NCBI RefSeq assembly: GCF_026626705.1
Contig: NZ_JAPNKC010000001.1
Location: 1,736,001-1,800,000 of the forward strand
DNA length: 64,000 nt
Direction of reading: 5' to 3'
Source of the DNA: Pyxidicoccus sp. MSG2
GTDB taxonomy: Bacteria > Myxococcota > Myxococcia > Myxococcales > Myxococcaceae
Under the pieces are notes generated by a model that was not told the origin of the DNA, ran no database searches, and saw only the letters and a list, made by a program, of their open reading frames with translations. A program made the position numbers and the translations under genes. Below, one piece after another: positions 37,274 to 64,000 of this stretch (positions within the stretch are counted from its first letter, which is position 1; every line of letters starts with the position of its first letter).

Positions 37274-37762
37274 GGACGGCCTCCTGCTTGAGCGTGGTAC
37301 CGCGCGAAGGTGGTGCCGTCCCCGGACGGAGGCGAGGCCCGCTCCCTCGCACGCCCAACCCCCTGGGGCGGGTGGCGCCCACGGCCGGCTGCCCTATTTG
37401 CAAGAATGCGCTCGGACTGTGAATATGCCGCGCACGCGACGTCACGCGCGACCCACACCCCGGCCATGATTCGACAGCCTGAACCACCCCCCTGTGCGGC
37501 CCGGTGCCGTGCGTCCCCTCCCCCACTCCGCGTCGCAGCCCCATCCCAGGGGCCTCGTACCCGCGCTGGGATGGAGTGCTGTCAGGGGTGACATGCAGGC
37601 TTCACCCGTCGTTACTCCCCTTGAGCCTGTTTCATCTGTTCTAAACGCCCTGTCTCAATTATCGGGCCCTCACGGGAAGGCCCTTCACCAGGGCTTCTCG
37701 AACAGCCCGTGTCTCCCCGGGAAACACGGCGCTGCTACCGCGATACATTTCTAGGAGGCGTC
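37274..37762. promoter_or_regulatory. Upstream region of the FAAL-NRPS-PKS operon
   Basis: 489 bp without a supported gene, between the DUF2383 gene and the first assembly-line gene. Its last 150 bases (about 37610-37760) are clearly more AT-rich than the surroundings ('CATCTGTTCTAAAC', 'CTCAATTATC', 'GATACATTTCTAGGAGG'), as expected for the promoter and 5' leader of the operon. A 6-bp hairpin CCGTGT/ACACGG lies at 37707-37729. I could not assign -35/-10 boxes with the right spacing. The ribosome site AGGAGG is at 37753-37758. Confidence 0.55.
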
Positions 37763-47979: not shown

Positions 47980-48023
47980 GCCGTAGAAACCCGACGGACC
48001 CCACACCCGAAAAGTCAGTGCCC

Positions 48024-51000
48024 ATGCCCAACGACATCGCCGCCGACGAGCAGGACATCGCCATCATCGGCATGACCGGGCGCTTCCCTGGAGCGCCCGA
48101 CCTCGACGCCTTCTGGCGCAACCTGCGCGAGGGCGTGGAGTCCATCCATCCCGTGCAGGACGCGGAGCTGGAAGCGCTGGGCGTGGACGCGTCCCTGCGC
48201 AAGGACGCGTCGTGGGTGAAGGCGTCCGCGGCGCTGGAGGGCATGGAGCTCTTCGACGCGGGCTTCTTCGGCTACACGCCCCGCGAGGCGGAGCTGATGG
48301 ACCCGCAGCACCGCGTCTTCCTGGAGAGCTGCTGGGAGGCGCTGGAGCGCGCGGGCTACGCGCCCGAGGGCTTCAAGGGCGCCATCGGCGTCTTCGGCGG
48401 CGCGCCGACGAATACGTACCTGCTGCACAACCTGGTGCCCAACGCGGACCAGCTCAGTATGCTGGACCAGGTGCAGATTGACGTCGCCAACGGCGGCGAC
48501 TTCCTGGGCACCCGCGTCGCGTACAAGCTCAACCTGCGCGGGCCCAGCTACTCCATCTCCAGTGCGTGCTCCACGTCGCTGGTGGCCACGCACGTCGCCG
48601 TCCAGAGCCTCCTCAACGAGGAGTGTGACATCGCCCTGGCCGGCGGCGTGTCCGTGCACGTGAAGCACCCGGAGGGCTACCGCTACCTGCCCGGCGGCAT
48701 CGTCTCGCCGGACGGACACTGCCGCGCCTTCGACGCGAAGGCGGACGGCACGGTGTTCGGCAGCGGCGCGGGCGTGGTGGTGCTCAAGCGCCTGAAGGAC
48801 GCACTGGAGGACGGCGACTTCATCCACGCCGTCATCAAGGGCTCCGCCATCAACAACGACGGCTCGGCGAAGGTGGGCTACACCGCGCCGAGCGTGGAGG
48901 GCCAGGCCGCCGTCATCGCCGAGGCCCTGGGCGCCGCGGGCGTGGAGCCGGAGAGCATCGGCTACGTGGAGGCGCACGGCACGGGCACGAAGATGGGCGA
49001 CCCCATCGAGGTGCGCGCGCTCACCAAGGCGTTCCGTCCGCGCAAGGCCAGCGCCGCCCCGGCGGCCACTGCCGCCACCGCGCGCAAGATTCCCATCGGC
49101 TCGGTGAAGACGAACATCGGCCACCTGGCGAACGCGGCCGGCGTGTCCAGCCTCATCAAGGCCGTGCTGTCGCTGCAGCACCGCGAGCTGGTGCCCAGCC
49201 TCCACTTCGAGCAGCCCAGCCCGGAGATTGATTTCGAGGCGAGCCCCTTCTACGTCAACGCGAAGCTGGAGCCCTGGCCGGCGCACCCGAAGCATCCGCG
49301 CCGCGCGGGCGTCAGCTCCTTCGGCGTGGGCGGCACCAACGCGCACATCGTCCTCCAGGAGGCCCCTGCCCTGCCCCCGTCCGGCCCGGCCCGGAAGGCG
49401 CAGATGCTGGTGCTGTCGGCCCGTTCCGCCACCGCGCTGGACGCCGCCACGCAGCGGCTGACGAAGCACCTGAAGGCGCACCCCGAGCAGTCGCTCGCGG
49501 ACGTGGCGTACACGCTCCAGGTGGGGCGCCAGCCCATGTCGCACCGCCGCGTGCTGGTGTGCACGGACCGGGACGACGCGCTCGCGGCGCTCGAAGCCGA
49601 GGGCATGCCGCGCTGCCTGACAGACGCGCCCCAGGTGCAGGACCGGCCGGTGGCCTTCCTCTTCCCGGGCCAGGGCTCGCAGTACGTGGGCATGGCGCGC
49701 GGGCTGTACGACGCCGAGCCCGTCTTCCGCGAGCACCTGGACGCCTGCGCCACGCACCTGCTCCCGCACCTGGGGCTGGACCTGCGCACGGTGCTGTACC
49801 CGGACGCCGCGGGCGTGGAGGAGGCAGCGAAGAAGCTGGGCCAGACGGCCCTGACGCAGCCGGCCCTCTTCGCGGTGGAGTACGCGCTGGCGCGGCTGTG
49901 GATGTCCTGGGGCGTGAAGCCGCAGGCCATGCTGGGGCACAGCGTGGGCGAGTACGTCGCCGCGTGCCTCGCGGGCGTCTTCGACTTGAAGGACGCGCTC
50001 GCGCTGGTGGCGAAGCGCGGGCAGCTCATGCAGTCGCTCCCCGCCGGCTCCATGCTGAGCGTGCAGCTTCCCGAGGACGCGCTGCGGCCGCACCTCACGC
50101 CGGAGCTGTCCCTGGCCGCCGTCAACGGGCCGCGCCTCACGGTGGTGGCCGGGCCGACGGAGGCCATTGCGGCGCTCCAGGCGAAGCTGGAGGCCCAGGC
50201 CGTGGGCGTGGCGAAGCTGCACACGTCGCACGCGTTCCACTCGGCGATGATGGACCCCATCCTCCCGGCCTTCATGGACGCGGTGCGCGCGGTGAAGCGC
50301 AACGCGCCGAAGCTCCAGTTCCTCTCCAACGTGACGGGCACGTGGATTGACGCCGCGCAGGCCGTGGACCCGGCGTACTGGGCGCAGCACCTGCGCCAGG
50401 CGGTGCGCTTCGACGCGGGCCTGCGCACGCTGGCGCAGAAGCCGCAGCTCGCGCTGCTGGAGGTGGGTCCGGGCACGACGCTCGCCTCGCTCGCACGGCA
50501 GCAGCCCGGCGCCGAGACGCGCGTGGCCGTCTCCTGCACACGGCACCCGCGCGAGACGACCGCCGACGACGTGACGGTGCTCGTGACGGCGCTGGGGAAG
50601 CTGTGGCTCAACGGCGTCCACCCGGACTGGGCGGGCTTCACGAAGAAGGAGCAGCGGCGCCGGCTGCCGCTTCCCTCCTACCCCTTCGAGCGGCAGCGCT
50701 ACTGGATTGATGCGCGTCCCGGCACCGGCCTGGGCATGACGCGTCCCGCGGCGGCCACCACCTCCGCATCGCCGGAGAAGAACAGCAACCCGGCGGACTG
50801 GTTCTACGTGCCGTCATGGAAGCGCGCGCCGCTGCCTCGCACGGCCGTGGCCACCGGGCCCGCGGCGGGCGTGCGGAGCTGGCTGGTGTTCGCGGACGCC
50901 GTGGGCGTGGCGGATGCGCTCGCCGCGAAGCTGGTGGCGGCGGGCCATGCCGTGGCGCGCGTCGTCCCCGGCACGGGCTTCAGCGCGTTGAGCGACGGCA

Positions 51001-52676
51001 GCTTCACGGTGGACCCGAAGCGGCGCGAGGACTACGCCGCGCTGCTGGACGCGCTCCAGCAGCAGGGCCACGCCGTCGGCGGCGTCGTGCACCTGTGGGG
51101 CGTGACGGCGGGCAACGTGCTGCGCGAGCTGGCGCTGGACACGGGCCTGCACAGCCTCCTGTCGCTCGCGCAGGCGCTGGGCGCGAAGGGCCAGACGGAG
51201 AAACAGCCCTGGTTCGTGGCCACCCGCGGAGCCGCGAAGGTGGAGCGCGCGGACGCCCTGGTGCCCGAGCTGGCGGCGCTGCTGGGGCCCTGCCGCGTGA
51301 TTCCCCAGGAGTACCCGCACGTCACCTGCCGGCTGGTGGACGTGGCCCCCGAGGGCCGGAGCGAGGACGCCCCCGCCCTGGCGGAGCACCTGCTGTCCGA
51401 GCTCTTCACGGGCGCGGCGGAGCCGGTGGTTGCCTGGCGTGGACGCCAGCGCTGGGTGCAGACCTTCGAGCCGCTGCAACTGGAGCAGGATGCCGCGTCC
51501 AGCCGTCCGCTGCGTGAGCAGGGCGTGTACCTCGTCACCGACGGCCTGGAAGGCCCGGGCTACGTACTGGCCGCGGACCTGGCGAAGACGCTCCAGGCGC
51601 GCCTCGCGCTGGTGGAGGCCCCGGGCTTCCCGGACCGCGAGCAGTGGGCGCAGGTGGTGGCCACCCACGAGCCGACGGACGCCACGCGCCGCAAGGTGGA
51701 GGCCGCACAGGCGCTGGAAGCGGCCGGAGCCGAGGTGCTGGTGCTCGGCGTGGACGCGACGGACGAGGCGCAGCTCCAGGGCGCGGTGACGCGCACGCGG
51801 GAGCGCTTCGGCCGCCTCGACGGCGTCATCCACGCAGCCAGCGGGCTGCGAGGCGCCATGCTGGGAGCCATCCAGGACCTCGGCCCCGAGCAGCGCGCCG
51901 CGTGCTTCGACCCCGCCGTGAATGGCCTGCGGGCCCTGGCCGCCGCGCTGCCCGCGGAGGGCCTGGACTTCGTGCTGCTCATGTCGTCGCTGTCCTCGGT
52001 GCTGGGCGGCCTGGGACAGGTGGCGCACGCGGCCTCCAGCGCGTACCTGGACGCCTTCGCGGAGGTGCGCTCCGACGCGGGCACCGTGCCCTGGCACAGC
52101 GTGGGCTGGGACGCGTGGAAGCTGGACGACACCGCCGCGCTGGGGGCGCTCGCGAAGTTCGCGCTGAGCCCCGCCGAGGGCGTGGACGCCACGCGCCGCA
52201 TCCTCTCGGGCGCCTCGGGCGGTCCCATCGCCGTGTGTACGGCGGACCTCGCGTCGCGGCGGCGGCAGTCGGCGCGCTCCGCGTCGCAGGCCCAGGCGGG
52301 CACCACGACCGGGGGCCGCAAGAGCCACCCGCGCCCCGCGCTCGCCACGGCCTACGTGGCGCCGCGCAATGACCTGGAGCGCACGCTCGCCACGGTGCTG
52401 CAGGGGGTGCTGGGCATCGACCCGCTGGGCATCGACGACAACTTCTTCGAGCTGGGCGCGGACTCGCTCCTCGCCGTCCAGGCGTCCGCACAGCTCAGGC
52501 AGGCCCTCCAGGTGGAGGTGCCGGCCGCCACCCTGTACCAGCGCCCCACGGCGCGCTCGCTCGCGGAGTTGCTGGGCGAGGGCGATGCCGCGGCCCGCGA
52601 GCGCGCGGAGAAGCTGGCGAAGCGCAAGGAAGAACTGAGCCGCCGCAACCAGTGGCTCCACCGCAAGCAGCGGTAG
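48024..52676 (+). CDS. Type I PKS, KS-AT-KR(inactive)-ACP
   Basis: A 1550-residue PKS module in the same operon. KS ~11-430 with Cys182 ('SSACSTSL') and the His motifs 'VEAHGTGT' and 'TNIGHL'. AT ~540-830 with Ser640 ('GHSVGEYVAAC') and 'HAFH', malonyl type. The KR region is degenerate: the nucleotide loop reads 'TDGLEGPG' instead of TGGxGxLG, the catalytic Lys is Ala1298 and the catalytic Tyr is His1335, so the keto group from this extension should remain. ACP ~1445-1520 with Ser1481 ('GADSL'). The start could also be the GTG two codons upstream. It lies 44 bp after the first PKS. Confidence 0.9.
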   Translation: MPNDIAADEQDIAIIGMTGRFPGAPDLDAFWRNLREGVESIHPVQDAELEALGVDASLRKDASWVKASAALEGMELFDAGFFGYTPREAELMDPQHRVFLESCWEALERAGYAPEGFKGAIGVFGGAPTNTYLLHNLVPNADQLSMLDQVQIDVANGGDFLGTRVAYKLNLRGPSYSISSACSTSLVATHVAVQSLLNEECDIALAGGVSVHVKHPEGYRYLPGGIVSPDGHCRAFDAKADGTVFGSGAGVVVLKRLKDALEDGDFIHAVIKGSAINNDGSAKVGYTAPSVEGQAAVIAEALGAAGVEPESIGYVEAHGTGTKMGDPIEVRALTKAFRPRKASAAPAATAATARKIPIGSVKTNIGHLANAAGVSSLIKAVLSLQHRELVPSLHFEQPSPEIDFEASPFYVNAKLEPWPAHPKHPRRAGVSSFGVGGTNAHIVLQEAPALPPSGPARKAQMLVLSARSATALDAATQRLTKHLKAHPEQSLADVAYTLQVGRQPMSHRRVLVCTDRDDALAALEAEGMPRCLTDAPQVQDRPVAFLFPGQGSQYVGMARGLYDAEPVFREHLDACATHLLPHLGLDLRTVLYPDAAGVEEAAKKLGQTALTQPALFAVEYALARLWMSWGVKPQAMLGHSVGEYVAACLAGVFDLKDALALVAKRGQLMQSLPAGSMLSVQLPEDALRPHLTPELSLAAVNGPRLTVVAGPTEAIAALQAKLEAQAVGVAKLHTSHAFHSAMMDPILPAFMDAVRAVKRNAPKLQFLSNVTGTWIDAAQAVDPAYWAQHLRQAVRFDAGLRTLAQKPQLALLEVGPGTTLASLARQQPGAETRVAVSCTRHPRETTADDVTVLVTALGKLWLNGVHPDWAGFTKKEQRRRLPLPSYPFERQRYWIDARPGTGLGMTRPAAATTSASPEKNSNPADWFYVPSWKRAPLPRTAVATGPAAGVRSWLVFADAVGVADALAAKLVAAGHAVARVVPGTGFSALSDGSFTVDPKRREDYAALLDALQQQGHAVGGVVHLWGVTAGNVLRELALDTGLHSLLSLAQALGAKGQTEKQPWFVATRGAAKVERADALVPELAALLGPCRVIPQEYPHVTCRLVDVAPEGRSEDAPALAEHLLSELFTGAAEPVVAWRGRQRWVQTFEPLQLEQDAASSRPLREQGVYLVTDGLEGPGYVLAADLAKTLQARLALVEAPGFPDREQWAQVVATHEPTDATRRKVEAAQALEAAGAEVLVLGVDATDEAQLQGAVTRTRERFGRLDGVIHAASGLRGAMLGAIQDLGPEQRAACFDPAVNGLRALAAALPAEGLDFVLLMSSLSSVLGGLGQVAHAASSAYLDAFAEVRSDAGTVPWHSVGWDAWKLDDTAALGALAKFALSPAEGVDATRRILSGASGGPIAVCTADLASRRRQSARSASQAQAGTTTGGRKSHPRPALATAYVAPRNDLERTLATVLQGVLGIDPLGIDDNFFELGADSLLAVQASAQLRQALQVEVPAATLYQRPTARSLAELLGEGDAAARERAEKLAKRKEELSRRNQWLHRKQR

Positions 52677-52721: not shown

Positions 52722-55700
52722 ATGGCAGACATCAACGAGACCGACGAGTCCTCCTACGAGGGACTGGCCATTGCCGTCATCGGCATGGCCGGACGCTTCC
52801 CCGGCGCGAAGGACGTGGAGCAGTTCTGGAAGAACCTGTGCGCGGGCGTGGAGTCCATCGTCCCCCTCACCGACGACGAGCTTCGCGCCGCGGGTGTGCC
52901 CGCCGACGAGCTGGGCTCCGGCCGCTACGTGAAGGCGGCGCCGGTGCTGGACGGCGTGGAGAACTTCGACGCGGGCCTCTTCGGCTACACGCCGCTGGAG
53001 GCGCGCGTCATGGACCCGCAGCAGCGCCTGCTGCTGGAGTGCGCGTGGGAGGCGCTGGAGCACGCGGGCTATGACCCGGACAAGCACCCGGGCGAGCGCG
53101 TCTCCGTCTTCGCCGGCACCCGCACCAGCACGTACCTCTTCCACGTGCTGGCCAACCGCGCCGCGCTCCAGCCGCAGGACCGCCTGCTGGTGGAGCTGGG
53201 CAACGACATGTCGTCGCTGGCCACGCGCGTCTCGTACAAGCTCAACCTCACCGGCCCCAGCACCATGGTGCAGACGGCGTGCTCCACGTCGCTCGTCGCC
53301 ATCCACCTGGCCTGCCAGAGCCTGCTGATGGGCGAGTGCCGCATGGCCCTGGCCGCGGCCACCGCCGTCAACGTGCCGCACCGCGCGGGCTACACCTACG
53401 AGCCGGGCAGCATGCTGTCCCCGGACGGGCACGTGCGCCCCTTCGACGCGAAGGCCGAGGGCACCGTCTTCGGCAGCGGCGCGGGCGTGGTGGTGCTCAA
53501 GCGCCTGCAGGACGCGATTGCCGACGGCGACAACGTCCTGGCCGTCGTCCGCGGCTCGGCGGTGAACAACGACGGCTCGCACAAGGCGTCCTTCACCGCG
53601 CCCAGCGTGGAAGGCCAGACGGAAGTGCTGCTGGAGTCGCTGGCGTGCGCCGGACTGGACGCGGACGCCATCAGCTACCTGGAGGCCCACGGCACCGGCA
53701 CGTCGCTGGGAGACCCGATTGAAATCCTCGCGCTCAACAACGCCTGGCGCGCGAGCACGGACAAGAAGGGCTTCTGCAAGCTGGGTACGGCGAAGGGCAA
53801 CGTGGGCCACCTGGACGTGGCCGCGGGCATGGCGGGCTTCATCAAGACGGTGATGCAGCTCCAGCACCGCAAGCTGCCGCCCATGCTGAACTTCACGGCG
53901 CCCAACCCTCAAATCGACTTCGGCAACAGCCCCTTCACCGTCAACACGAAGCTGACGGACTGGACGGGCACCGGCCCGCTGCGCGCGGGTGTCAGCTCGT
54001 TCGGCTTCGGCGGCACCAACGCCCACGTCATCCTCGAGGAGGCTCCGAAGGCCGAGGCCTCCGGCCCGTCCCGTCCCGCGCAGCTCCTGCTGGTGTCGGC
54101 CCGGAGCGAGGCCGCGCTGGACACGGCCACCGACAACCTGGCGGCGTGGCTGAAGGAGCACCCGGGCGCGTCGCTGGCGGACGTGGCCTTCACGCTCCAG
54201 GTGGGCCGCAAGGACTTCGACCACCGCCGCGTGCTGGTGGCCCGCACCGCGCAGGATGCCGCGGAGGCGCTGGCCTCCCGCGCGCCCGCGCGCGTCCTCA
54301 CGGGCCTGCGCGAGGTGGGCGACCGGCCGGTGGTCTTCATGTTCCCCGGCCAGGGCGCGCAGCACGTGAACATGGCGCGCGAGCTGTATGACAGCGAGCC
54401 CGCCTTCCGCGCCGAGGTGGACACCTGCGCGGAGAAGCTCAAGCCGCACCTGGGCCTGGACCTGCGCACCGTCCTCTACCCCGCCCCCTCCGGCGAGGCC
54501 GAGGCCACGAAGAAGCTGGAGGGCACCGCCCTCACCCAGCCGGCGCTGTTCGTCATCGAATACGCGCTGGCGAAGCTGTGGATGGCCTGGGGCGTGAAGC
54601 CACGCGCCATGGTGGGCCACAGCATCGGCGAGTACGTGGCCGCCTGCCTCGCGGGCGTCTTCTCGCTGGACGACGCGCTGGCGCTGGTGGCCACGCGCGG
54701 CCGGCTGATGCAGTCGCTGCCCGCGGGCTCCATGCTCGCCGTGCCGCTGCCCGAGGCCGAAGTCACGCCGCTGCTGGAGGGGAAGCTGGACCTCGCGGCC
54801 GTCAACGGCCCGGCGATGTGCGTGGTGGCCGGCCCCACGGAGGCCGTGGACGCGCTGGAGGCGAAGCTCTCCGCGCGCGGTGTCCAGGCGCGGCGGCTGC
54901 ACACGTCGCACGCCTTCCACTCCGCGATGATGGACTCCATCCTCGCGCCCTTCACGGACGCGGTCCGCCGCGTGCGCCTCCAGGCGCCGAAGCTGCCGTA
55001 CGTGTCCAACGTGACGGGCACGTGGATTGACGCCGCGCAGGCCACGGACCCGGCGTACTGGGCCCGCCACCTGCGCTCGCCGGTGCGCTTCGCCCAGGGG
55101 CTGCGCGAGCTGCTGAAGGACGCCTCCGACGTGCTGCTGGAGGTGGGCCCCGGCCAGACGCTGGGCAGCCTCGCCAAGGCGCAGCCGGAGGCCGCCGGGC
55201 GCACGGTGCTCTCGTCGTCCCGCCACCCGCAGAAGCCCGAGTCCGACGCCGCGAAGCTGATGGGCGTGGTCGGCGAGCTGTGGCTGGCCGGTGTGCCGAT
55301 GGACTGGAAGGGCCTCTACACCGCGCAGAAGCGCCACCGCGTGCCGCTGCCGGGCTACCCCTTCGAGCGCGAGCGCTACTGGGTGGACGCCGTGGAGGGC
55401 GCGGCCGCGCAGACGCAGACGCGCGCGCCCACGGGCAAGCACGCGGACGTGGCGGACTGGTTCCACGTCCCCGCGTGGAAGCCCGCGGCCCCGCCCGCGC
55501 TGGACGCCGAGGCGCTGGCGAAGTCGCGCTGCTGGGTGCTGCTGGAGGACGGGCTCGGGGTGGGCGAGGCGCTGGCCCGCCGCCTGAAGGCGGAAGGGCG
55601 TGACGTCGTCACCGTGAAGGCGGGCAAGGCGTACGCCCGCGAGGACGCGCGTCGCTACACCGCCGCGCCGGACAGCAAGACGGACCTGCAGGCGGTGTTC

Positions 55701-58652
55701 GAGGACCTGGAGAAGCAGGGCCTGCCCGCCGACGTCGTCGTCCACCTGTGGAGCCTCACCGCGCCGGACGTGACGGGCTCCGGCCCGGAGCTGTTCCGCA
55801 AGGTGCAGGACGGCGGCTACTACAGCCTGCTCGCGCTGGGCCAGTCGCTCGCGAAGGGCACCCGGCCGGTGCGCGTGGAGGTGGTCTCCAACCGCCTCCA
55901 CGACCTGGAGGGCGAGCACCAGGCGCTGGCGGAGAAGTCCCCGCTGCTCACCGCCTGCAAGGTGATTCCGCAGGAGCTCCAGCACGTCACCGCCCGCTGC
56001 GTGGAGGTGGAGCTGCCGGTGCCGTCCAGCCCCCGCGCGGAGCGGCTGGCCGGGATGCTGGTGGCGGAGTTCAGCGCCCGTGGCTCGGAGCTGCTGGTGG
56101 TGCTGCGCGGCACCCGCCGCTACGTCCAGGCCTACACCCCCGTGCGGCTGGAGGCGAAGGGCGCGCCCCTGGCGCCGATGCGCGAGGGCGGCGTGTACCT
56201 CATCACCGGCGGCATGGGCGCGGTGGGCCTCATGCTGGCGGACCACCTGGCGGAGACCTTCAAGGCGAAGCTGGCGCTGCTCGGCCGCACTCCGCTGCCG
56301 GAGCGGAGCTCCTGGGACGCGTGGCTTTCGGGCCATGCCGAGGACGACACGACGAGCCGCCGCATCCGCCGTGTGAAGGAGCTGGAGGCGAAGGGCGCCG
56401 AGGTGCTGGTGCTCGACGCCGACGTGGCGGACGCCGCGAAGCTCAAGGCGGCGGTGGCCAGGGCGGTGGCCCACTTCGGCGCGCTGCACGGCGTGCTGCA
56501 CACGGCGGGCGTCACCCGCGGTGACTCGCCGTACATGGCGCTGACGGACGTGCGCCGCGACGCGGCCGAGACGCAGTTCGGTCCCAAGGTGTACGGCACC
56601 TACGCGCTGGAGGAGGCGCTGCGCGGGCACGCGGTGGACTTCGTGCTGCTCTTCTCGTCCAGCTCGTCGGTGCTGGGCGGCCTCGCGCACTTCACCTACG
56701 CGGCGGGCAACCAGTTCCTGGACGCCTTCGCGGAGAGTCGGCGCGGCCTGGAGTCGCCGCGCTGGGTGAGCGCCTCGTGGGACCCGTGGCCCGAGGAGAC
56801 GAAGCACACCTCGCTGCGCACGGCGATGGACCAGTACACCATGTCGATTCCGGAGGGCACCCAGGCACTGCGCCGCGTGGTGCAGGCCGGGCTCGACGGC
56901 CAGGTGGTGGTCATCACCGGCGACCTGCAACAGCGCGTGCGCCTGTGGGTCGACCGCGAGGTGAAGGCGCCGGGCGCGCCGCAGAAGAAGGCCGCCAACC
57001 GCGTGCGCCGGGGCAAGACGGCCTTCGTCGCCCCGGGCACCGATTTGGAGAAGGCGGTGGCCGCGCTGTGGAGCGAGCTGCTCGGCGTGGCCGAAGTGGG
57101 CCTGCACGACGACTTCTTCGACCTGGGCGGACACTCGCTGCTGGCCACGCAGCTGCGCAACCAGCTCCAGGCCACCTTCAAGGTGGAGCCGCCGCTGCGC
57201 AGCCTCTTCGAGAACCCCACCGTGGCCGGCCTCTCCGGCCTCATCGCGAAGGAGCTGGCGGCGCGCGAGGCCGTCCCGTCCAAGCCCCTGGCCGAGGCCC
57301 TGCGCACGGCCTTCCCCACCGAGCGCCCGTCGCTCCTGGAGGACTGGCTGCGCCGCAAGGTGGCGAAGGTGACCAACCGCGCCGTGAAGGACCTGCCCGC
57401 CAACGGCAGCCTCACGGGGCTCGATCTGGACGCCATCGGCTCCGAGCTGGAGTTCGACCTGAAGAAGGAGCTCAAGTTCCAGCTCTACCCGCATGAGCTG
57501 CGCGAGCACGCCACGCTGCCCGAGCTGTCGCGCTACCTGCTGGCGGAAATGGAGCGCCAGTCGGACCCGGGCCGCTTCGCCACGGACCTGCCGCTGTCGG
57601 CCTTGTCGCTGCGCCCCTACCGCCGGCAGGCGTCCGGCCCCAAGGTGCGGGCGGCGAAGAAGAACCCGAGCATGGTGTTCGTGCACTCCACGCCGCGCGC
57701 GGGCTCCACGCTCTTCCGCGTGATGCTCGCCGGGCACCCGCGCCTGTTCTGCCCGCCCGAGCTGAACCTCCTCTTCTTCGAGACGATGAAGGAGTGGAAG
57801 CAGAACGTGGGCTTCGGCCACGAGATGGAGTGGACCGAGCGCGGCCTGCTGTGGGCCTTCATGGAGATGCTCAAGGTGGACTCCACCGCGGGCCAGGCGT
57901 TCCTCGACAAGCTGGTGGCGGACGACGTCTCCTCGCAGGCCGTCTACGGACGGCTGCAGGAGCTGTCCGGCCCGCGCCTCCTGGTGGACAAGACGCCGCC
58001 GTACGCCATGGACCCGGAGACGCTGCAGCGGGGCGAGGAGCTGTTCGACAAGCCGAAGTACCTCTTCCTCATCCGCCACCCGCTGCCCGTCATGGAGTCG
58101 CTGGTGCGCATGCGCTTCGACCGGCTCTTCGGCCCCAGCCTCTTCGGCTCGGCGGACGTGGACCCCTACGCCGTCGCGGAGACGGTGTGGGCCATGCCCA
58201 ACCAGAACCTGCTCGACTTCTACGCGCGCATCGGCTCCGAGCGCGTGCACTGGGTCCGCTACGAGGAACTGGTGAGCGAGCCGGAGCGGGTGATGAAGGG
58301 CGTCAGCGACTTCCTCGAGCTGCCCTACGACGCCGGCATGGTGCAGCCGTACGACGGCAAGCGCGAGCGCATGCTCGGCGGTCTGGGTGACCCGAACATC
58401 CTCCAGCACACGCGCATCGAGGGTGAGCGCAGCGACTCCTGGAAGCGCATCCAGTGGCCCCGTGCGCTGGACGCGTCCACGCGCTCGCTGGCCACCCGCC
58501 TGGGCTACGAGCTGCCGGAGGCCGCGCCCGTGCCGAAGAAGGCCGCCGCCGGCGGGGCCGAGCAGTTGCTGGAGAACCTGGACAACCTCTCCGACGAGCA
58601 GGTCGCCGCACTGCTGGCGGAGATGGAGGGCGACGCGGACAAGGTAGCCTGA
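52722..58652 (+). CDS. Type I PKS, KS-AT-KR-ACP-(ACP-like)-sulfotransferase
   Basis: A 1976-residue PKS. KS ~17-440 with Cys187; AT ~540-825 with Ser634 and 'HAFH' (malonyl); KR ~900-1415 with intact 'GGMGAVG', Lys1289, Tyr1326 and Asn, so it should give a beta-hydroxy chain; ACP ~1435-1510 with Ser1472 ('GGHSLLATQ'). Then an ACP-like domain ~1520-1605 whose Ser position reads 'GLDLDAIG'. Then a PAPS-dependent sulfotransferase ~1640-1900: 5'-phosphosulfate loop 'TPRAGSTLFR' (from Thr1657) and 3'-phosphate site 'IRHPLPVMESLVRMR'. A C-terminal 'LDNLSDEQVAALLAEM' looks like a docking element for the next NRPS. Similar KR-ACP-ST modules in curacin and olefin synthases end in a TE; here none follows. 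Confidence 0.9.
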   Translation: MADINETDESSYEGLAIAVIGMAGRFPGAKDVEQFWKNLCAGVESIVPLTDDELRAAGVPADELGSGRYVKAAPVLDGVENFDAGLFGYTPLEARVMDPQQRLLLECAWEALEHAGYDPDKHPGERVSVFAGTRTSTYLFHVLANRAALQPQDRLLVELGNDMSSLATRVSYKLNLTGPSTMVQTACSTSLVAIHLACQSLLMGECRMALAAATAVNVPHRAGYTYEPGSMLSPDGHVRPFDAKAEGTVFGSGAGVVVLKRLQDAIADGDNVLAVVRGSAVNNDGSHKASFTAPSVEGQTEVLLESLACAGLDADAISYLEAHGTGTSLGDPIEILALNNAWRASTDKKGFCKLGTAKGNVGHLDVAAGMAGFIKTVMQLQHRKLPPMLNFTAPNPQIDFGNSPFTVNTKLTDWTGTGPLRAGVSSFGFGGTNAHVILEEAPKAEASGPSRPAQLLLVSARSEAALDTATDNLAAWLKEHPGASLADVAFTLQVGRKDFDHRRVLVARTAQDAAEALASRAPARVLTGLREVGDRPVVFMFPGQGAQHVNMARELYDSEPAFRAEVDTCAEKLKPHLGLDLRTVLYPAPSGEAEATKKLEGTALTQPALFVIEYALAKLWMAWGVKPRAMVGHSIGEYVAACLAGVFSLDDALALVATRGRLMQSLPAGSMLAVPLPEAEVTPLLEGKLDLAAVNGPAMCVVAGPTEAVDALEAKLSARGVQARRLHTSHAFHSAMMDSILAPFTDAVRRVRLQAPKLPYVSNVTGTWIDAAQATDPAYWARHLRSPVRFAQGLRELLKDASDVLLEVGPGQTLGSLAKAQPEAAGRTVLSSSRHPQKPESDAAKLMGVVGELWLAGVPMDWKGLYTAQKRHRVPLPGYPFERERYWVDAVEGAAAQTQTRAPTGKHADVADWFHVPAWKPAAPPALDAEALAKSRCWVLLEDGLGVGEALARRLKAEGRDVVTVKAGKAYAREDARRYTAAPDSKTDLQAVFEDLEKQGLPADVVVHLWSLTAPDVTGSGPELFRKVQDGGYYSLLALGQSLAKGTRPVRVEVVSNRLHDLEGEHQALAEKSPLLTACKVIPQELQHVTARCVEVELPVPSSPRAERLAGMLVAEFSARGSELLVVLRGTRRYVQAYTPVRLEAKGAPLAPMREGGVYLITGGMGAVGLMLADHLAETFKAKLALLGRTPLPERSSWDAWLSGHAEDDTTSRRIRRVKELEAKGAEVLVLDADVADAAKLKAAVARAVAHFGALHGVLHTAGVTRGDSPYMALTDVRRDAAETQFGPKVYGTYALEEALRGHAVDFVLLFSSSSSVLGGLAHFTYAAGNQFLDAFAESRRGLESPRWVSASWDPWPEETKHTSLRTAMDQYTMSIPEGTQALRRVVQAGLDGQVVVITGDLQQRVRLWVDREVKAPGAPQKKAANRVRRGKTAFVAPGTDLEKAVAALWSELLGVAEVGLHDDFFDLGGHSLLATQLRNQLQATFKVEPPLRSLFENPTVAGLSGLIAKELAAREAVPSKPLAEALRTAFPTERPSLLEDWLRRKVAKVTNRAVKDLPANGSLTGLDLDAIGSELEFDLKKELKFQLYPHELREHATLPELSRYLLAEMERQSDPGRFATDLPLSALSLRPYRRQASGPKVRAAKKNPSMVFVHSTPRAGSTLFRVMLAGHPRLFCPPELNLLFFETMKEWKQNVGFGHEMEWTERGLLWAFMEMLKVDSTAGQAFLDKLVADDVSSQAVYGRLQELSGPRLLVDKTPPYAMDPETLQRGEELFDKPKYLFLIRHPLPVMESLVRMRFDRLFGPSLFGSADVDPYAVAETVWAMPNQNLLDFYARIGSERVHWVRYEELVSEPERVMKGVSDFLELPYDAGMVQPYDGKRERMLGGLGDPNILQHTRIEGERSDSWKRIQWPRALDASTRSLATRLGYELPEAAPVPKKAAAGGAEQLLENLDNLSDEQVAALLAEMEGDADKVA

Positions 58653-58654
58653 CC

Positions 58655-61600
58655 ATGGCGCTCACGCCCGAGCAGAAGCGCGCGCGGCTCGCCGGGCTTC
58701 TGCGCGAGCGTTCACGTGCTCGCCGCGAGCCCGTGTCGTTCGCGCAGGAGGGCTTCTGGCTCCAGGAGCGACTCAACGCCGGGGGGACGGTCTTCAACAT
58801 CCCCACGGCCGTACGCCTCTCGGGCACGCTGGACGCGGACGTCCTGCGCAGGGCGCTCGACGAGGTGATTCGCCGGCACGAGGCGCTGCGGACCACCTTC
58901 GTCGAGCAGGACGGCCAGCCGCGCCAGCTCATCTCCCCCACCGCGGAGGCCGCCCTCCCGGTGGTGGAGTTGGGGGAGGTCCCCGAGGACGTCGTGTGGC
59001 GCGCGCTGCACGACGAGGCGCGCCGCCCCTTCGACGTGGAGCAGGGGCCGCTGCTGCGGGCGGTGCTCTACCGGATGAGCGCCACCGAGCACCTGCTGCT
59101 GCTCAACGTGCACCACCTCGTCTCGGACGCATGGTCTCTGGGAGTGCTGGTGCGGGAGCTGGGCGCGCTCTACCCGGCGCTCGCCGAGGGCCGTGCGTCG
59201 CCCCTGCCTCCGCTGCCCATGCAGTACGCGGACTACGCGACGTGGCAGCGCGGCTGGCTCCAGGGAGAGGTGCTGGAATCGCGGCTCGCCTGGTGGAGCA
59301 AGCGGCTGGACGCGGATGCGGTGCTGGAGCTGCCCACGGACCGGCCCCGGACCCCGGCGGCCTCCACGCGTGGCGCACGGCAGACGGTGGTGCTGCCCCT
59401 GGCATTGCTCGACTCGCTCCGGACGCTGGCCCGCCGCGAGGGCTGCACCCTCTTCTCTCTCCTGATGGCCGCGTACGGCGTGCTGCTGTCCCGCTACAGC
59501 GGACAACCGGACGTCGTCGTGGGCACACCGGTGGCCGGGCGCTCCCGCGCGGAGCTGGAGGGGCTGGTCGGGCTGTTCGTCAACGCCCTGCCCCTGCCAC
59601 TGGACCTGTCCGGGGACCCGTCCTTCCTGGCGCTGCTCGGCCGCGTGCACGAGGGCGTGCTCGGGGCCATGGCCCACCAGGACGTGCCCTTCGAGACGCT
59701 GGTGGAAGCGCTCCGGCCCGAGCGACGGCCGGGCATCACGCCCCTGTTCCAGGTGTCGCTCACGCTTCAGAACGCGCCCCTGCCCCCGCTGGAGCTGCCG
59801 GGGCTGCGCATGGAGGCGCAGCCTGTCGACAGCGGCGCCAGCCAGCAGGACGTGTCCCTGCTGTTCACCGAGCTGGAGCAGGGGCTGCGCACCGCGGTGG
59901 TGTACCGCACCGACCTCTTCGAGTCCGAGCGCATCTCCCGCATGCTGGGGCACCTGCACACGCTGCTGGAGGGCATCGTCGCCGCTCCCGGCAGACGCCT
60001 GAGCGAGCTGCCCCTGCTGTCCGCCGGGGAGCAGCGGCAGGTGCTCGTGGACTGGAGCGGCCGGACCGAGCCCTTCCCGGACGGCGCCTGCATCCACGAG
60101 TTGTTCGAGGCGCAGGCACGGCGCACGCCCGACGCGGAGGCGGTGCGCTTCGAAGCCACCGTGCTCACGTACGCGCAGCTCGACGCTCGCGCCAACGCGC
60201 TGGCGCACCTGCTGAGTGCCTATGGTGTGAGCGCGGAGATTCGCGTGGCGCTGTGCCTGCCGCGCTCTCCCGAGTGGGTGGTGGCGGTGCTCGCCGTCCT
60301 CAAGGCCGGTGGCGCCTTCGTCCCCATGGACCCCGCCTATCCCTCGGAGCGGCTGGAGTTCATGCTGGAGGACTGCGGCGCGCCGCTGCTGCTGACGCAC
60401 GCGTCGCTCGATGTGCCGACGCCGCCTGGCGTGTTGGCGTTGGCCATGGACGCGCTGGAGACGCGCCTGGCCGGCCAGGCGACGACTCCGCTTGCATCGA
60501 AGGCCCCGGCCGATGGGCTCGCGTACGTCATCTACACCTCCGGCAGCACCGGCCAGCCCAAGGGCGTCATGGTGCCCCACCGGGGCGTGCTCAACCTGGT
60601 GCGAAGCCAGGTGCAGCCGCAGGGGCTGGGGCCCGGCACGCGCGTGCTCCAGTTCGCCTCGCCCGGCTTCGACGCCTTCGTCTGGGAAACCCTTCCCACG
60701 CTGCTCTCCGGCGCCACGTTGTGCCTGGCCTCTGACGAAGCCGTGCAGCCGGGCCCGGCCCTGGCCCGCCTGCTCCAGCAGCACGACGTCCACGTCCTCT
60801 CCCTGACGCCCTCCGCCCTCACCGCCCTGCCAGCCGACGGACTTCCCTCGCTGCGCACCGTCGTCTCCGCGGGTGAGGCCTGCTCCCCCGAGCTGGTGGC
60901 CAGGTGGGCCCCCGGCCGCACCTTCTTCAACGCCTACGGCCCCACCGAAGCCACCGTCTGCGCCTCCATGGCCACGTGCGTGCCCGACGGCCAGAAGCCC
61001 TCCATCGGCGAGCCCCTGGCCAACGTGCGCGTCTTCGTCCTCGACGCCCACCTGCAGCCCGTCCCCGTCGGCATCCCCGGCGAGCTCTTCATCGGCGGCG
61101 TCGGCGTGGCGCGCGGCTACCTGCACCGGCCTTCTCTCACCGCCGAGCGCTTCGTCCCCGACGCCTTCAGCGCCACTCCCGGCGCACGCCTCTACCGCAC
61201 AGGAGACCGCGTGTGCTGGAGGACGGACGGCCAACTCGAGTACCTCGGCCGCACCGACTTCCAGGTGAAGCTGCGCGGCTTCCGCATCGAGCTGGGTGAA
61301 GTCGAAGCCGTCCTGCGCTCCCATCCAGACGTCTCCGAGGCCGTGGCCCTGGTGCGCGACGATGGCCCCACCGGCCCCAGGCTCGTCGCCTATGTCGTGC
61401 CCTCCGCCACGGCTTCCGCCCTGGACTCGCAGACGCTGCGCGACTTCGCCTCCACGCTCCTTCCGGAGCACATGCTGCCCTCGGCGCTGGTGTCGCTGCC
61501 GTCGCTGCCGCTGACAGCCAACGGCAAGGTGGACCGGAGAGCCCTACCCGCTCCGGACATGGGCGGCGCCGACGCGGCCTCCGCCGGCTACGCGCCTCCG

Positions 61601-64000
61601 AGCACGCCCACCGAGGAGCTGCTCGCGGACATCTGGGCCCAGGTGCTCGGTGTCTCGCGCGTGGGCACGGGCGACAACTTCTTCGAGCTCGGCGGTCACT
61701 CGCTGCTGGCCACGCAGGTCGTCTCCCGCATCCGCGCCATCTTCGGCACGGAGCTTCCCGTGCGGGAGCTCTTCTCCGCGCCGACGCTGGGCGCGCTGGC
61801 CCGGCAGGTGGACGCGGCTCGCGGGGCCACGGGAAGACTCACGCTTCCGCCGCTCGCCCCCGTGCCGCGCACGGGCGAGCTGCCGCTGTCCTTCGCGCAG
61901 CAGCGGCTGTGGTTCATCGACCAGCTCGAACCCGGCAACTCGACGTACAACATGCCCGCCGCCCTCCGCCTGGAGGGCACCCTGGACGCCGGTGCACTGG
62001 AGGCCGCGCTGGTCGAGGTGGTGCGCCGCCACGAGGCCCTGCGCACCACCTTCGTCTCGCGCGAGGGCCAGCCCGCGCAGTGCATCCAGCCGGACCCGGT
62101 GTTCCACCTGCCCCAGGTGGACCTGACGTCATGCTCCGACTCCGGGCAGGAGGCCCGGCGCCTCGCGCGTGAAGAAGCCCTGCGCCCCTTCGACCTCGCC
62201 GCGGGCCCCCTGCTGCGCGCCGTCCTGCTGCGCCTCGGTGACACCGAGCACGTGCTGCTGCTCACGCTGCACCACATCGTCTTCGACGGCTGGTCCCTGG
62301 GCGTGCTGGTGCGCGAAGTCGCCGCCCTCTACGCCGCCTTCCTGCGGGGCCAGCCTTCGCCGCTCCCGCCCCTCCCGGTCCAGTACGCGGACTACTCCGT
62401 CTGGCAGCGCGGCTGGCTCGAAGGCGAGGTGCTGGACGGGCAGCTCTCCTGGTGGAGACAGCAGCTCGACGGCGTGCCGCACTCGCTGGAGCTGCCCACC
62501 GACAAGCCGCGTCCCGCCGTGCCGTCCTCGCGTGGCGCCTTCGTGCCCGTGCGAATCCCCACGGACCTTTCCGAGCACCTCAAGGCTCTCTCGCGGCGGC
62601 AGGGCGCGACGCCGTTCATGACGCTGCTGGCGGCCTTCCAGGTGCTGCTGCACCGCTATTCCGGACAGGACGACCTCGTCGTCGGCTCGCCCATCGCCGG
62701 CAGGAACGACGCGGGGACCGAAGGGCTCATCGGCTTCTTCGTCAACAACCTGGCCCTGCGCGCGCGCATCGCCCCGCGGGCTTCGTTCCTCGCGCTGCTG
62801 GAGCAGGTGCGGGAGACCACGCTCGCCGCCTACGAGCACCAGGACGTGCCCTTCGCGAAGCTCGTCGAGGAGCTCCGACCACAGCGAAGCCTCAATCAGG
62901 CGCCGCTGTACCAGACGAGCTTCAGCCTGCTGAATACGCCCATGCCGGCGCTGGAGCTTCCCGGACTGCGGCTGCTCCCGCTGCTTCCGGACACCGTGCC
63001 GGCGAGGTTCGACCTGAACCTCGCGCTGGAGGAGACGACGGAGGGCTTCAGCGGCAGCCTCCACTACGCCACCGACCTGTTCGACGCCTCCACTCTCGAG
63101 CGCATGGCGGGGCATCTCCGGACCCTGCTCGCGGCCATCTGCCAGGACGCCACCCGGCCGGTGGCGATGCTGCCGCTGCTGTCCCCCGAGGAGCAGCGGC
63201 AGGTGCTCGTGGACTGGAGTGGCAGGGACGAGCCCTTCCCGGACGGCGCCTGCATCCACGAGTTGTTCGAGGCGCAGGCACGGCGCACGCCCGACGTGGA
63301 GGCGGTGCGCTTCGGCGAGGAGGTCCTCACCTACGCACAGCTCGACACGCGCGCCAACGCGCTGGCCCACGTGCTGCGTGCCCATGGTGTGCGCGCGGAA
63401 ACGCGTGTCGCCTTGTGCCTGCCGCGCTCGCCCGATTGGGTGGTGGCGGTGCTCGCCGTCCTCAAGGCCGGTGGCGCCTTCGTCCCCATGGACCCCGCCT
63501 ATCCCTCGGGACGGCTGGCCTTCATGCTGGAGGACTGTGCCGCGCCGCTGCTGCTGACGCACGCGTCGCTCGATGTGCCAGCGCCGCACGGCGTGCTCGT
63601 GCTGGAGGTGGATGCACTCACGCAGCAGCTCTCCGGTCAGCCCTCCACGCCGCCTGCTCCGCTGGCCAGCGTGGACGGGCTCGCGTACGTCATCTACACC
63701 TCCGGAAGCACCGGCCAGCCCAAGGGCGTCATGGTGCCCCACCGGGGCGTGCCCAACCTGGCGCGAAGCCAGGTGCGGCCACAGGGGCTGGGGCCCGGCA
63801 CGCGCGTGCTCCAGTTCGCCTCGCCCGGCTTCGACGCCTTCGTCTGGGAAACCCTTCCCACGCTGCTCTCCGGCGCCACGTTGTGCCTGGCCTCTGATGA
63901 GGCCCTACAGCCCGGTCCCGCGCTGGCGCGCCTGCTCCAGCGGCACGACGTCCACGTCCTCTCCCTGACGCCCTCCGCCCTCACCGCCCTGCCAGCCGAC
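58655..64000 (+). CDS. NRPS, C-A-PCP-C-A..., cut by the window end
   Basis: An open frame from ATG 58655 (two bases after the previous stop) to the last base, at least 1782 residues. The N-terminus 'ALTPEQKRARLAGLLRER' is a likely docking helix. C1 ~25-440 with 'HHLVSDAWS' at 153; A1 ~460-970 with 'FDAFVWE' (Asp673 equals Asp235), '[11 protein letters not shown]' and 'NAYGPTE'; PCP1 ~985-1055 with Ser1016; C2 ~1070-1500 with 'HHIVFDGWS' at 1206; A2 from ~1510, cut. The A1 specificity residues read approximately D-A-W-S-V-A-A-V-C-K, close to the Phe/aromatic codes; the visible part of A2 matches A1. No epimerisation domain lies between the modules. C1 should accept the polyketide chain. More modules and a TE are expected to the right. 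Confidence 0.92.
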   Translation, partial: MALTPEQKRARLAGLLRERSRARREPVSFAQEGFWLQERLNAGGTVFNIPTAVRLSGTLDADVLRRALDEVIRRHEALRTTFVEQDGQPRQLISPTAEAALPVVELGEVPEDVVWRALHDEARRPFDVEQGPLLRAVLYRMSATEHLLLLNVHHLVSDAWSLGVLVRELGALYPALAEGRASPLPPLPMQYADYATWQRGWLQGEVLESRLAWWSKRLDADAVLELPTDRPRTPAASTRGARQTVVLPLALLDSLRTLARREGCTLFSLLMAAYGVLLSRYSGQPDVVVGTPVAGRSRAELEGLVGLFVNALPLPLDLSGDPSFLALLGRVHEGVLGAMAHQDVPFETLVEALRPERRPGITPLFQVSLTLQNAPLPPLELPGLRMEAQPVDSGASQQDVSLLFTELEQGLRTAVVYRTDLFESERISRMLGHLHTLLEGIVAAPGRRLSELPLLSAGEQRQVLVDWSGRTEPFPDGACIHELFEAQARRTPDAEAVRFEATVLTYAQLDARANALAHLLSAYGVSAEIRVALCLPRSPEWVVAVLAVLKAGGAFVPMDPAYPSERLEFMLEDCGAPLLLTHASLDVPTPPGVLALAMDALETRLAGQATTPLASKAPADGLAYVIYTSGSTGQPKGVMVPHRGVLNLVRSQVQPQGLGPGTRVLQFASPGFDAFVWETLPTLLSGATLCLASDEAVQPGPALARLLQQHDVHVLSLTPSALTALPADGLPSLRTVVSAGEACSPELVARWAPGRTFFNAYGPTEATVCASMATCVPDGQKPSIGEPLANVRVFVLDAHLQPVPVGIPGELFIGGVGVARGYLHRPSLTAERFVPDAFSATPGARLYRTGDRVCWRTDGQLEYLGRTDFQVKLRGFRIELGEVEAVLRSHPDVSEAVALVRDDGPTGPRLVAYVVPSATASALDSQTLRDFASTLLPEHMLPSALVSLPSLPLTANGKVDRRALPAPDMGGADAASAGYAPPSTPTEELLADIWAQVLGVSRVGTGDNFFELGGHSLLATQVVSRIRAIFGTELPVRELFSAPTLGALARQVDAARGATGRLTLPPLAPVPRTGELPLSFAQQRLWFIDQLEPGNSTYNMPAALRLEGTLDAGALEAALVEVVRRHEALRTTFVSREGQPAQCIQPDPVFHLPQVDLTSCSDSGQEARRLAREEALRPFDLAAGPLLRAVLLRLGDTEHVLLLTLHHIVFDGWSLGVLVREVAALYAAFLRGQPSPLPPLPVQYADYSVWQRGWLEGEVLDGQLSWWRQQLDGVPHSLELPTDKPRPAVPSSRGAFVPVRIPTDLSEHLKALSRRQGATPFMTLLAAFQVLLHRYSGQDDLVVGSPIAGRNDAGTEGLIGFFVNNLALRARIAPRASFLALLEQVRETTLAAYEHQDVPFAKLVEELRPQRSLNQAPLYQTSFSLLNTPMPALELPGLRLLPLLPDTVPARFDLNLALEETTEGFSGSLHYATDLFDASTLERMAGHLRTLLAAICQDATRPVAMLPLLSPEEQRQVLVDWSGRDEPFPDGACIHELFEAQARRTPDVEAVRFGEEVLTYAQLDTRANALAHVLRAHGVRAETRVALCLPRSPDWVVAVLAVLKAGGAFVPMDPAYPSGRLAFMLEDCAAPLLLTHASLDVPAPHGVLVLEVDALTQQLSGQPSTPPAPLASVDGLAYVIYTSGSTGQPKGVMVPHRGVPNLARSQVRPQGLGPGTRVLQFASPGFDAFVWETLPTLLSGATLCLASDEALQPGPALARLLQRHDVHVLSLTPSALTALPAD
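60011..60838 (+). repeat. Adenylation-domain repeat, copy 1
   Basis: This segment of the last NRPS gene recurs at 63173-64000, shifted by exactly 3162 bp (1054 codons, one C-A-PCP module) with no gaps at any of the anchors I checked. Long stretches, e.g. about 60640-60720, are identical. The copy probably continues past the window. Confidence 0.88.
63173..64000 (+). repeat. Adenylation-domain repeat, copy 2
   Basis: Second copy of the 60011-60838 segment, in the A2 domain. The flanking C domains differ clearly, so the similarity is confined to the adenylation part. This points to recent duplication or gene conversion of A domains rather than of whole modules. Confidence 0.88.

Follow-up and report, generated by a model that had tools for sequence, protein, structure and literature searches.

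We analyzed a 64,000-nucleotide stretch of Pyxidicoccus sp. MSG2 DNA (the window; positions 1736001-1800000 of contig C1, in a genome of 13.3 Mb in 2 contigs), which encodes an assembly line of polyketide synthase (PKS) and nonribosomal peptide synthetase (NRPS) modules in the consecutive genes g1 to g5. The PKS gene g4 carries a real, conserved, non-terminal sulfotransferase (ST) domain of the CurM type, which belongs to a clade of its own and lies behind a domain that resembles a carrier but has no phosphopantetheine Ser (psi-ACP; ACP, acyl carrier protein). Judged from sequence, this ST would behave like an in-line tailoring domain and fall outside the olefin modules in which an ST is followed by a thioesterase (TE). 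On a slight balance of probability, g4 sulfates its beta-hydroxyacyl chain and passes the chain on with the sulfate kept.

Translation of g4 gave 1976 amino acids without stops, and Pfam placed its domains in the order ketosynthase (KS), acyltransferase (AT), ketoreductase (KR), PP-binding, and Sulfotransfer_3, with nothing after the ST and no TE in the gene. From the KR onward, the features were as follows (PAPS, 3'-phosphoadenosine-5'-phosphosulfate):

56190..56789, + strand: KR, with GGxGxxG, Lys, Ser, Tyr, and Asn all present (motifs).
57045..57245, + strand: ACP, predicted to be working, with GGHSL including the phosphopantetheine Ser (motifs).
57276..57587, + strand: psi-ACP, predicted carrier fold, with DLDAIG instead of GMDSLM at the Ser site (alignment, profile, model, Foldseek).
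57660..58526, + strand: ST domain, CurM-type, with PAPS motifs PRAGSTL and RHPxxxxxS, the Glu of PPEL, and the His of DPNxxxH (Pfam, sequence, model).
58560..58649, + strand: C-terminal helix-like tail (EQLLENLDNLSDEQVAALLAEMEG), with a similar one in Archangium (sequence).

The tail is probably a docking segment. The PAPS motifs, Glu, and His, together with the loop Arg, are the residues to which we presume the individual functions of the ST belong. By motif comparison, the KR motif set is complete, as needed for the predicted formation of a beta-hydroxyl. The original prediction of a PAPS-type ST in a PKS module that hands over to an NRPS was borne out, with the NRPS gene g5 starting 2 bases past the g4 stop codon (at 58655). 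The span it had assigned to the ST, 57540-58652, does contain the domain but also takes in the end of the linker, the ST itself extending from about 57660 to 58526. Likewise, the order KR-ACP-ST was read correctly, but the Ser-less psi-ACP between the ACP and the ST had been missed.

Searched against Protein Data Bank (PDB) sequences, the ST matched those of CurM (4gbm, E 2e-80) and of the olefin synthase (OLS; 4gox, E 4e-65). An AlphaFold model of psi-ACP plus ST (pLDDT 86.3) gave TM scores, by target length, of 0.92 to 4gbm and 0.95 to 4gox, and this match in both sequence and fold excludes chance. Retinol dehydratase and LGS1 were also among the fold matches by title. A homologue search with g4 residues 1510-1976 yielded 117 proteins (P numbers below denote such proteins, and L numbers loci), 53 of which form, with the window, a 54-row group that we call the midline clade. 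All 54 rows keep the loop Arg, G-S/T-T, PPE, DK, RHP...S, DxN...H, and Trp, and 51/54, including the window, keep the loop Pro before the Arg. Thus, no mutated ST loop was found in the orthologues, where the original prediction had suggested looking for one, and a decayed ST was ruled out as the core motifs are kept throughout the clade.

In a first ST tree of 116 domains (excluding P0114 and four matches with low scores), the midline STs grouped together with an SH-aLRT support of 95, and the NRPS-borne STs formed a separate clade with a support of 100, save P0048, which lies inside the midline clade. In a more careful tree built from 52 selected rows, the midline clade was supported at 98/91 and had a single origin in 98% of 200 bootstrap trees. 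The CurM and OLS STs lay outside it in both trees. The comparison with CurM/Ols proposed earlier therefore upheld the homology but revealed a separate clade that had gone unnoticed. No TE or hydrolase Pfam domain was detected in any of the 53 database proteins of the midline clade. A KS or KR part, then an ST, then a condensation (C) domain were found in one chain in 13/117 homologues (P0060, P0063, P0067, P0068, P0070, P0075, P0078, P0083, P0089, P0098, P0101, P0106, and P0111). As a separate observation, P0091-P0095, P0097, P0100, P0081, and P0113 have KS-AT-ACP-ST without KR, or STs beside reductase-type Pfam domains.

When the approximately 130 residues between the ACP and the ST of g4 were used as a query, they matched the single ACP of ST-TE modules. 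The alignment set GMDSLMxMEL...YPRE in the ST-TE proteins against LDLDAIGSELE...YPHE in the window, and the phosphopantetheine Ser was present in all aligned ACPs of the ST-TE (16/16) and PKS-ST-C (6/6) proteins. The psi-ACP site is one residue shorter in 52/54 midline-clade rows, and the other 2 have Asp in the Ser column. Counted without gaps, since the gap can fall on either side, no Ser occurs at the site in 48/54 rows, window included; erosion of the site thus affects the majority of the clade but is not universal. A psi-ACP profile of 22 rows matched the mupirocin didomain ACP best among PDB entries (E 3.6e-5), with the CurA ACP at 5e-4. The psi-ACP modeled alone had a pLDDT of 89.7, and the Foldseek top 50 for this model were nearly all carrier proteins or carrier-bearing chains, the best having a probability of 1.00 with an E-value of only 2.5e-3 (104 residues). 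Together, these results point to a predicted carrier four-helix fold. We infer that an old ACP-ST unit was joined behind another ACP and that its own ACP then lost the Ser. In one Chloroflexota locus (L062:9386), the first ACP of an ACP-psiACP-ST arrangement is also without Ser (GGDAL).

The assembly line comprises the following genes and domains, with coordinates past 64000 continuing the window numbering beyond its right edge (FAAL, fatty acyl-AMP ligase; A, adenylation domain; PCP, peptidyl carrier protein):

37709..43225, + strand: g1, FAAL-ACP-C-A-PCP, predicted to start the line by loading a lipid (Pfam, NCBIfam FAAL models).
43246..47979, + strand: g2, KS-AT-KR-ACP, with the KS active-site Cys changed to Ser (QSSSSTS) and a KR without the usual Asn and Lys (Pfam, motifs).
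48018..52676, + strand: g3, KS-AT-KR-ACP, with the KS Cys present and a dead KR (Tyr to His, Asn lost) (Pfam, motifs).
52722..58652, + strand: g4, KS-AT-KR-ACP-psiACP-ST, the module in question (translation, Pfam).
58655..64000, onward to 73846, + strand: g5, the NRPS after g4, ending C-PCP-TE (Pfam, domain scan).
58787-60058 and 60104-61123, + strand: first C domain of g5 (HHLVSDA) and its A domain (code DAWSVAAVCK).

The KS and KR motif positions considered in g2-g4 are those that we take to be catalytic. A domain scan of g5 revealed four C-A-PCP modules, then C-PCP-TE, with the TE at 73070-73807, approximately 15 kb beyond the ST. This is the sole TE of the line. The TE that the original prediction had proposed to seek past the right border was therefore not found after the ST, and a TE of g4 beyond the window edge was ruled out.

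A locus scan with one genome per species yielded 75 loci, of which the closest named one by ST was that of Pyxidicoccus caerfyrddinensis (97% over the ST segment). All 14 loci from Myxococcaceae and Archangium (L014-L027) have KS-AT-KR-ACP, KS-AT-KR-ACP-psiACP-ST, and then a gene starting C-A-PCP. In L017-L027, the Corallococcus, Citreicoccus, Archangium, and Myxococcaceae metagenome-assembled-genome loci, a further PKS module follows that C-A-PCP gene start; in Archangium, the line after the ST runs C-A-PCP, KS-AT-KR-PCP, eight C-A-PCP, TE. Since PKS and NRPS modules continue after the ST in these loci, the ST unit is internal to the line. Five Chloroflexota loci (L029-L033) have an ST module like that of g4 and a C domain later, and L028 ends near the ST. 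The cluster is patchy, with matches in 10/59 family genomes, own genome counted, 2 of the 10 being distant or weak (G003, G046). The absence of a TE fused to the ST, together with the passage to an NRPS in the orthologous loci, indicates that these loci do not encode the decarboxylative ST-TE route, in agreement with the original claim that decarboxylation is unavailable. Separately, L034 (Anaerolineae) has three successive STs, in KS-AT-DH-KR-ACP-ST, C-A-PCP-ST, and C-A-PCP-ST (DH, dehydratase).

We compared g4 with known systems on the basis of the parts of the published sources available. The CurM and OLS modules have the order KR-ACP-ST and use sulfation followed by elimination, with sulfate as the leaving group (PMC3903477). 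Their KR-ACP-ST-TE arrangement shares with g4 a homologous ST with intact motifs and the KR-ACP-ST order, whereas g4 has no TE after the ST, an ST in a separate clade, an extra psi-ACP, a non-terminal position, and an NRPS next. HlaB, of the myxobacterial PKS-NRPS for haliamide in Haliangium ochraceum, has an ST homologous to that of CurM but, unlike g4, ends in ST-TE, is proposed to form a terminal alkene, and has a last module without KR (PMC6274090). The in-line ST of DysB is tied to the sulfated glycerate of dysinosin (PMC6520454), as is that of AerB of varlaxin (O-methyltransferase, FkbH, PCP, ST) to a sulfated glycerate (PMC10143770); the oci cluster for cyanopeptolin has an ST and a glyceric-acid (GA) domain, with the sulfate not named in the accessible portion of the text (PMC2533009). 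These three STs, lying inside an NRPS line, resemble that of g4 in position. They are linked to a glycerate starter that FkbH-type or GA domains load, whereas the g4 ST belongs to a PKS extension unit, and g1, as FAAL-ACP-C-A-PCP, is not of the FkbH/GA glycerate-loading type. A C domain lies downstream of the ST in the window, as in the DysB/AerB type, but on a separate polypeptide. NRPS modules of the form C-A-PCP-ST, found in several Thermoanaerobaculia, Acidobacteriota, and Chloroflexi, carry in-line STs of the same superfamily as g4 but have their own ST clade, are amino-acid modules, and, among the NRPS rows of the first homologue search, gave no psi-ACP match save P0048. Among the matches listed by a literature search, weak because subscription papers are mostly outside it, there was neither a sulfated lipopeptide from myxobacteria nor an ST internal to a PKS.

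In the route that we favor, the KR of g4 would make a beta-hydroxyl on the ACP-bound chain, and this KR product would be the acceptor onto which the ST moves sulfate from PAPS. The psi-ACP would be a structural adaptor left from the older ACP-ST unit, and the sulfated chain would be handed to the C domain of g5 with its sulfate kept, giving a sulfated lipopeptide. To assess the fate of the sulfate, a second search with the ST of the NRPS protein P0051 was performed (1234 proteins, best 120 used), and A-domain codes, labeled by what we take to be their substrate types, were read in 119 new proteins and 18 earlier ones. The 153 modules directly before an ST comprised 44 Thr-type, 37 Ser-type, 24 Tyr-type, and 46 other modules, with 2 unreadable; the 155 other modules of those proteins comprised 11 Thr-type, 9 Ser-type, 1 Tyr-type, and 112 other, with 22 unreadable. 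Ser/Thr/Tyr codes thus occurred in 105/151 pre-ST modules versus 21/133 others (Fisher p 1e-20, relatedness uncorrected), and the arrangement C-A-PCP-ST-C accounted for 83/179 ST neighborhoods counted. These codes suggest that most in-line STs of the superfamily are placed at units that bring in a hydroxyl. Because of this enrichment, with which the published in-line STs of dysinosin and varlaxin agree, retention of the sulfate appears somewhat the likelier of the two outcomes, retention or elimination, that the original prediction had allowed. The presence of APS kinase in the genome also speaks for the route. Two other clues to the fate of the sulfate were rejected. PAPS genes and sulfatases were uninformative, as both APS kinase (adenosine 5'-phosphosulfate kinase) matches and all 11 sulfatase matches in the genome lie away from the cluster, and the C domain after the ST gave no signal as a cause of elimination (HHLVSDA in the window and L014; HHI[VI]SDG in L015-L027).

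Several observations weigh against this route. In 11/11 of L017-L027, that is, in 11/14 myxobacterial loci, the ST module combines an intact ST with a dead KR (Tyr to Gln/His, Asn lost), a feature that the original prediction had missed. In L029-L033, the KR has a Tyr-to-Phe change. A beta-hydroxyl from that KR is therefore excluded as the acceptor in these loci. No KR is visible in P0019, P0024, P0036, P0050, P0086, P0091-P0095, P0097, and P0100. The Arg before the YE motif is present in the window and in only 38/54 clade rows. Furthermore, Ser occurs at or beside the psi-ACP site in 6/54 rows (P0030, P0044, P0045, P0050, P0052, and P0080), and the second carrier of L035-L037 keeps GLDSI, suggesting that some domains at this position may remain carriers; the non-gapped count weakens the psi-ACP as a universal hallmark and leaves the window and the probability given to retention unaffected. 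In L062 and L072, no NRPS was found within the 10-kb flank after the ST. The domain following the ST of the 153 pre-ST modules was C in 91 and TE in 45, and the A-code enrichment comes from the NRPS ST branch, not the window's clade. The sulfate may still be lost after transfer.

Such a loss is the core of one alternative, which we consider rather unlikely: the beta-hydroxyl would be sulfated only transiently, with the sulfate lost on the line, so that the ST substitutes for a DH and an alpha,beta-unsaturated chain reaches the NRPS. Retinol dehydratase and LGS1, the ST-fold enzymes matched by title, use sulfate as a leaving group, and no DH domain was detected by Pfam in g2-g4. Sulfation followed by elimination is also the logic of CurM/OLS (PMC3903477). 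However, the ST is not followed by any base or lyase domain, some of the related in-line STs are found on Tyr-type modules (24/151), which allow no elimination, and the in-line STs described in the literature are linked to sulfated units (PMC6520454, PMC10143770). In a doubtful alternative, the KR of the ST's own module would be irrelevant, and the acceptor would be either some other hydroxyl of the ACP-bound chain, introduced by an earlier unit, or a beta-keto chain in its enol form. The intact STs beside dead KRs in the Corallococcus/Archangium-type loci agree with this, as does the Archangium ST module, whose first three 100-residue steps are 79, 77, and 89% identical to g3 versus 52, 55, and 65% to g4, while its ST is 64-67% identical to that of g4, g3 having none; the ACP step is less decisive (72% to g4 versus 60% to g3, over 25 residues). 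This profile indicates that the position of the ST unit at the PKS-NRPS junction is constant, regardless of which KS-AT-KR lies before it. It could reflect either insertion of a module ahead of the ST unit or, as the simpler explanation, a deletion that joined the KR of g3 to the ACP-psiACP-ST remaining from a lost g4. Against an acceptor independent of the KR stand the complete KR motifs of the window, L014-L016, and other clade members including P0015, P0018, and P0044. Finally, it is very improbable that g4 is a terminal olefin module at which the line ends, with a TE acting in trans and g5 making another product. Although g5 begins with its own C domain and further TE-ended NRPS genes follow, no TE lies beside the ST, the clade is apart from the ST-TE rows, an NRPS comes next in 14/14 loci, and the Archangium line runs on to a TE.

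Other features of these loci were also observed. The g2 KS (43321-44445) has Ser for the active-site Cys in 12/12 visible orthologues (the window and L017-L027). The g1 A domain (41369-42421; code ASGSLGGVCK) has Ala, as in Archangium, in place of the Asp that normally serves the alpha-amino group, which hints at a substrate other than an ordinary alpha-amino acid. The final C-PCP-TE module of g5 (71453-73807) is without an A domain, and several TE-ended NRPS groups follow g5 in succession. Later NRPS genes (L009-L012, at approximately 80555, 94512, 98510, and 110027) contain frame changes inside C or A domains, suggesting frameshifts or assembly errors. Genes between the ST and the NRPS were rejected as sulfate genes: the approximately 4-kb gene in Chloroflexota is, in L032 (11018-14863), a major facilitator superfamily transporter fused to a penicillin-amidase-type acylase, and in L035 and L037 the intervening gene, of 2 kb, encodes a radical SAM (S-adenosylmethionine) protein. 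The L032 fusion suggests export with removal of the acyl tail, and L029, L030, L031, and L033 have a gap of similar size at its position.

More broadly, we propose, with about even confidence, that in-line STs are widespread, positionally programmed tailoring domains that write sulfate onto PKS beta-hydroxyls via ACP-psiACP-ST and onto Ser, Thr, or Tyr in NRPSs, olefin formation by CurM/OLS being one specialized use and the psi-ACP a mostly dead carrier kept as an ST adaptor. If the sulfate is kept, groups of lipopeptides from myxobacteria, Chloroflexota, and Acidobacteriota would be expected as anionic sulfate esters, with the ester position predictable from the gene cluster. They would offer mass-spectrometric targets (loss of 80 Da) and a handle for engineering the solubility and charge of non-ribosomal products, and such in-line STs would plausibly provide a broader background to the alkene-forming ST-TE pair. 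If the sulfate is lost, the ST would instead take the place of a DH within assembly lines, a role just as unusual. Such clusters would be mispredicted by genome mining in which PKS-ST is read as "terminal alkene".

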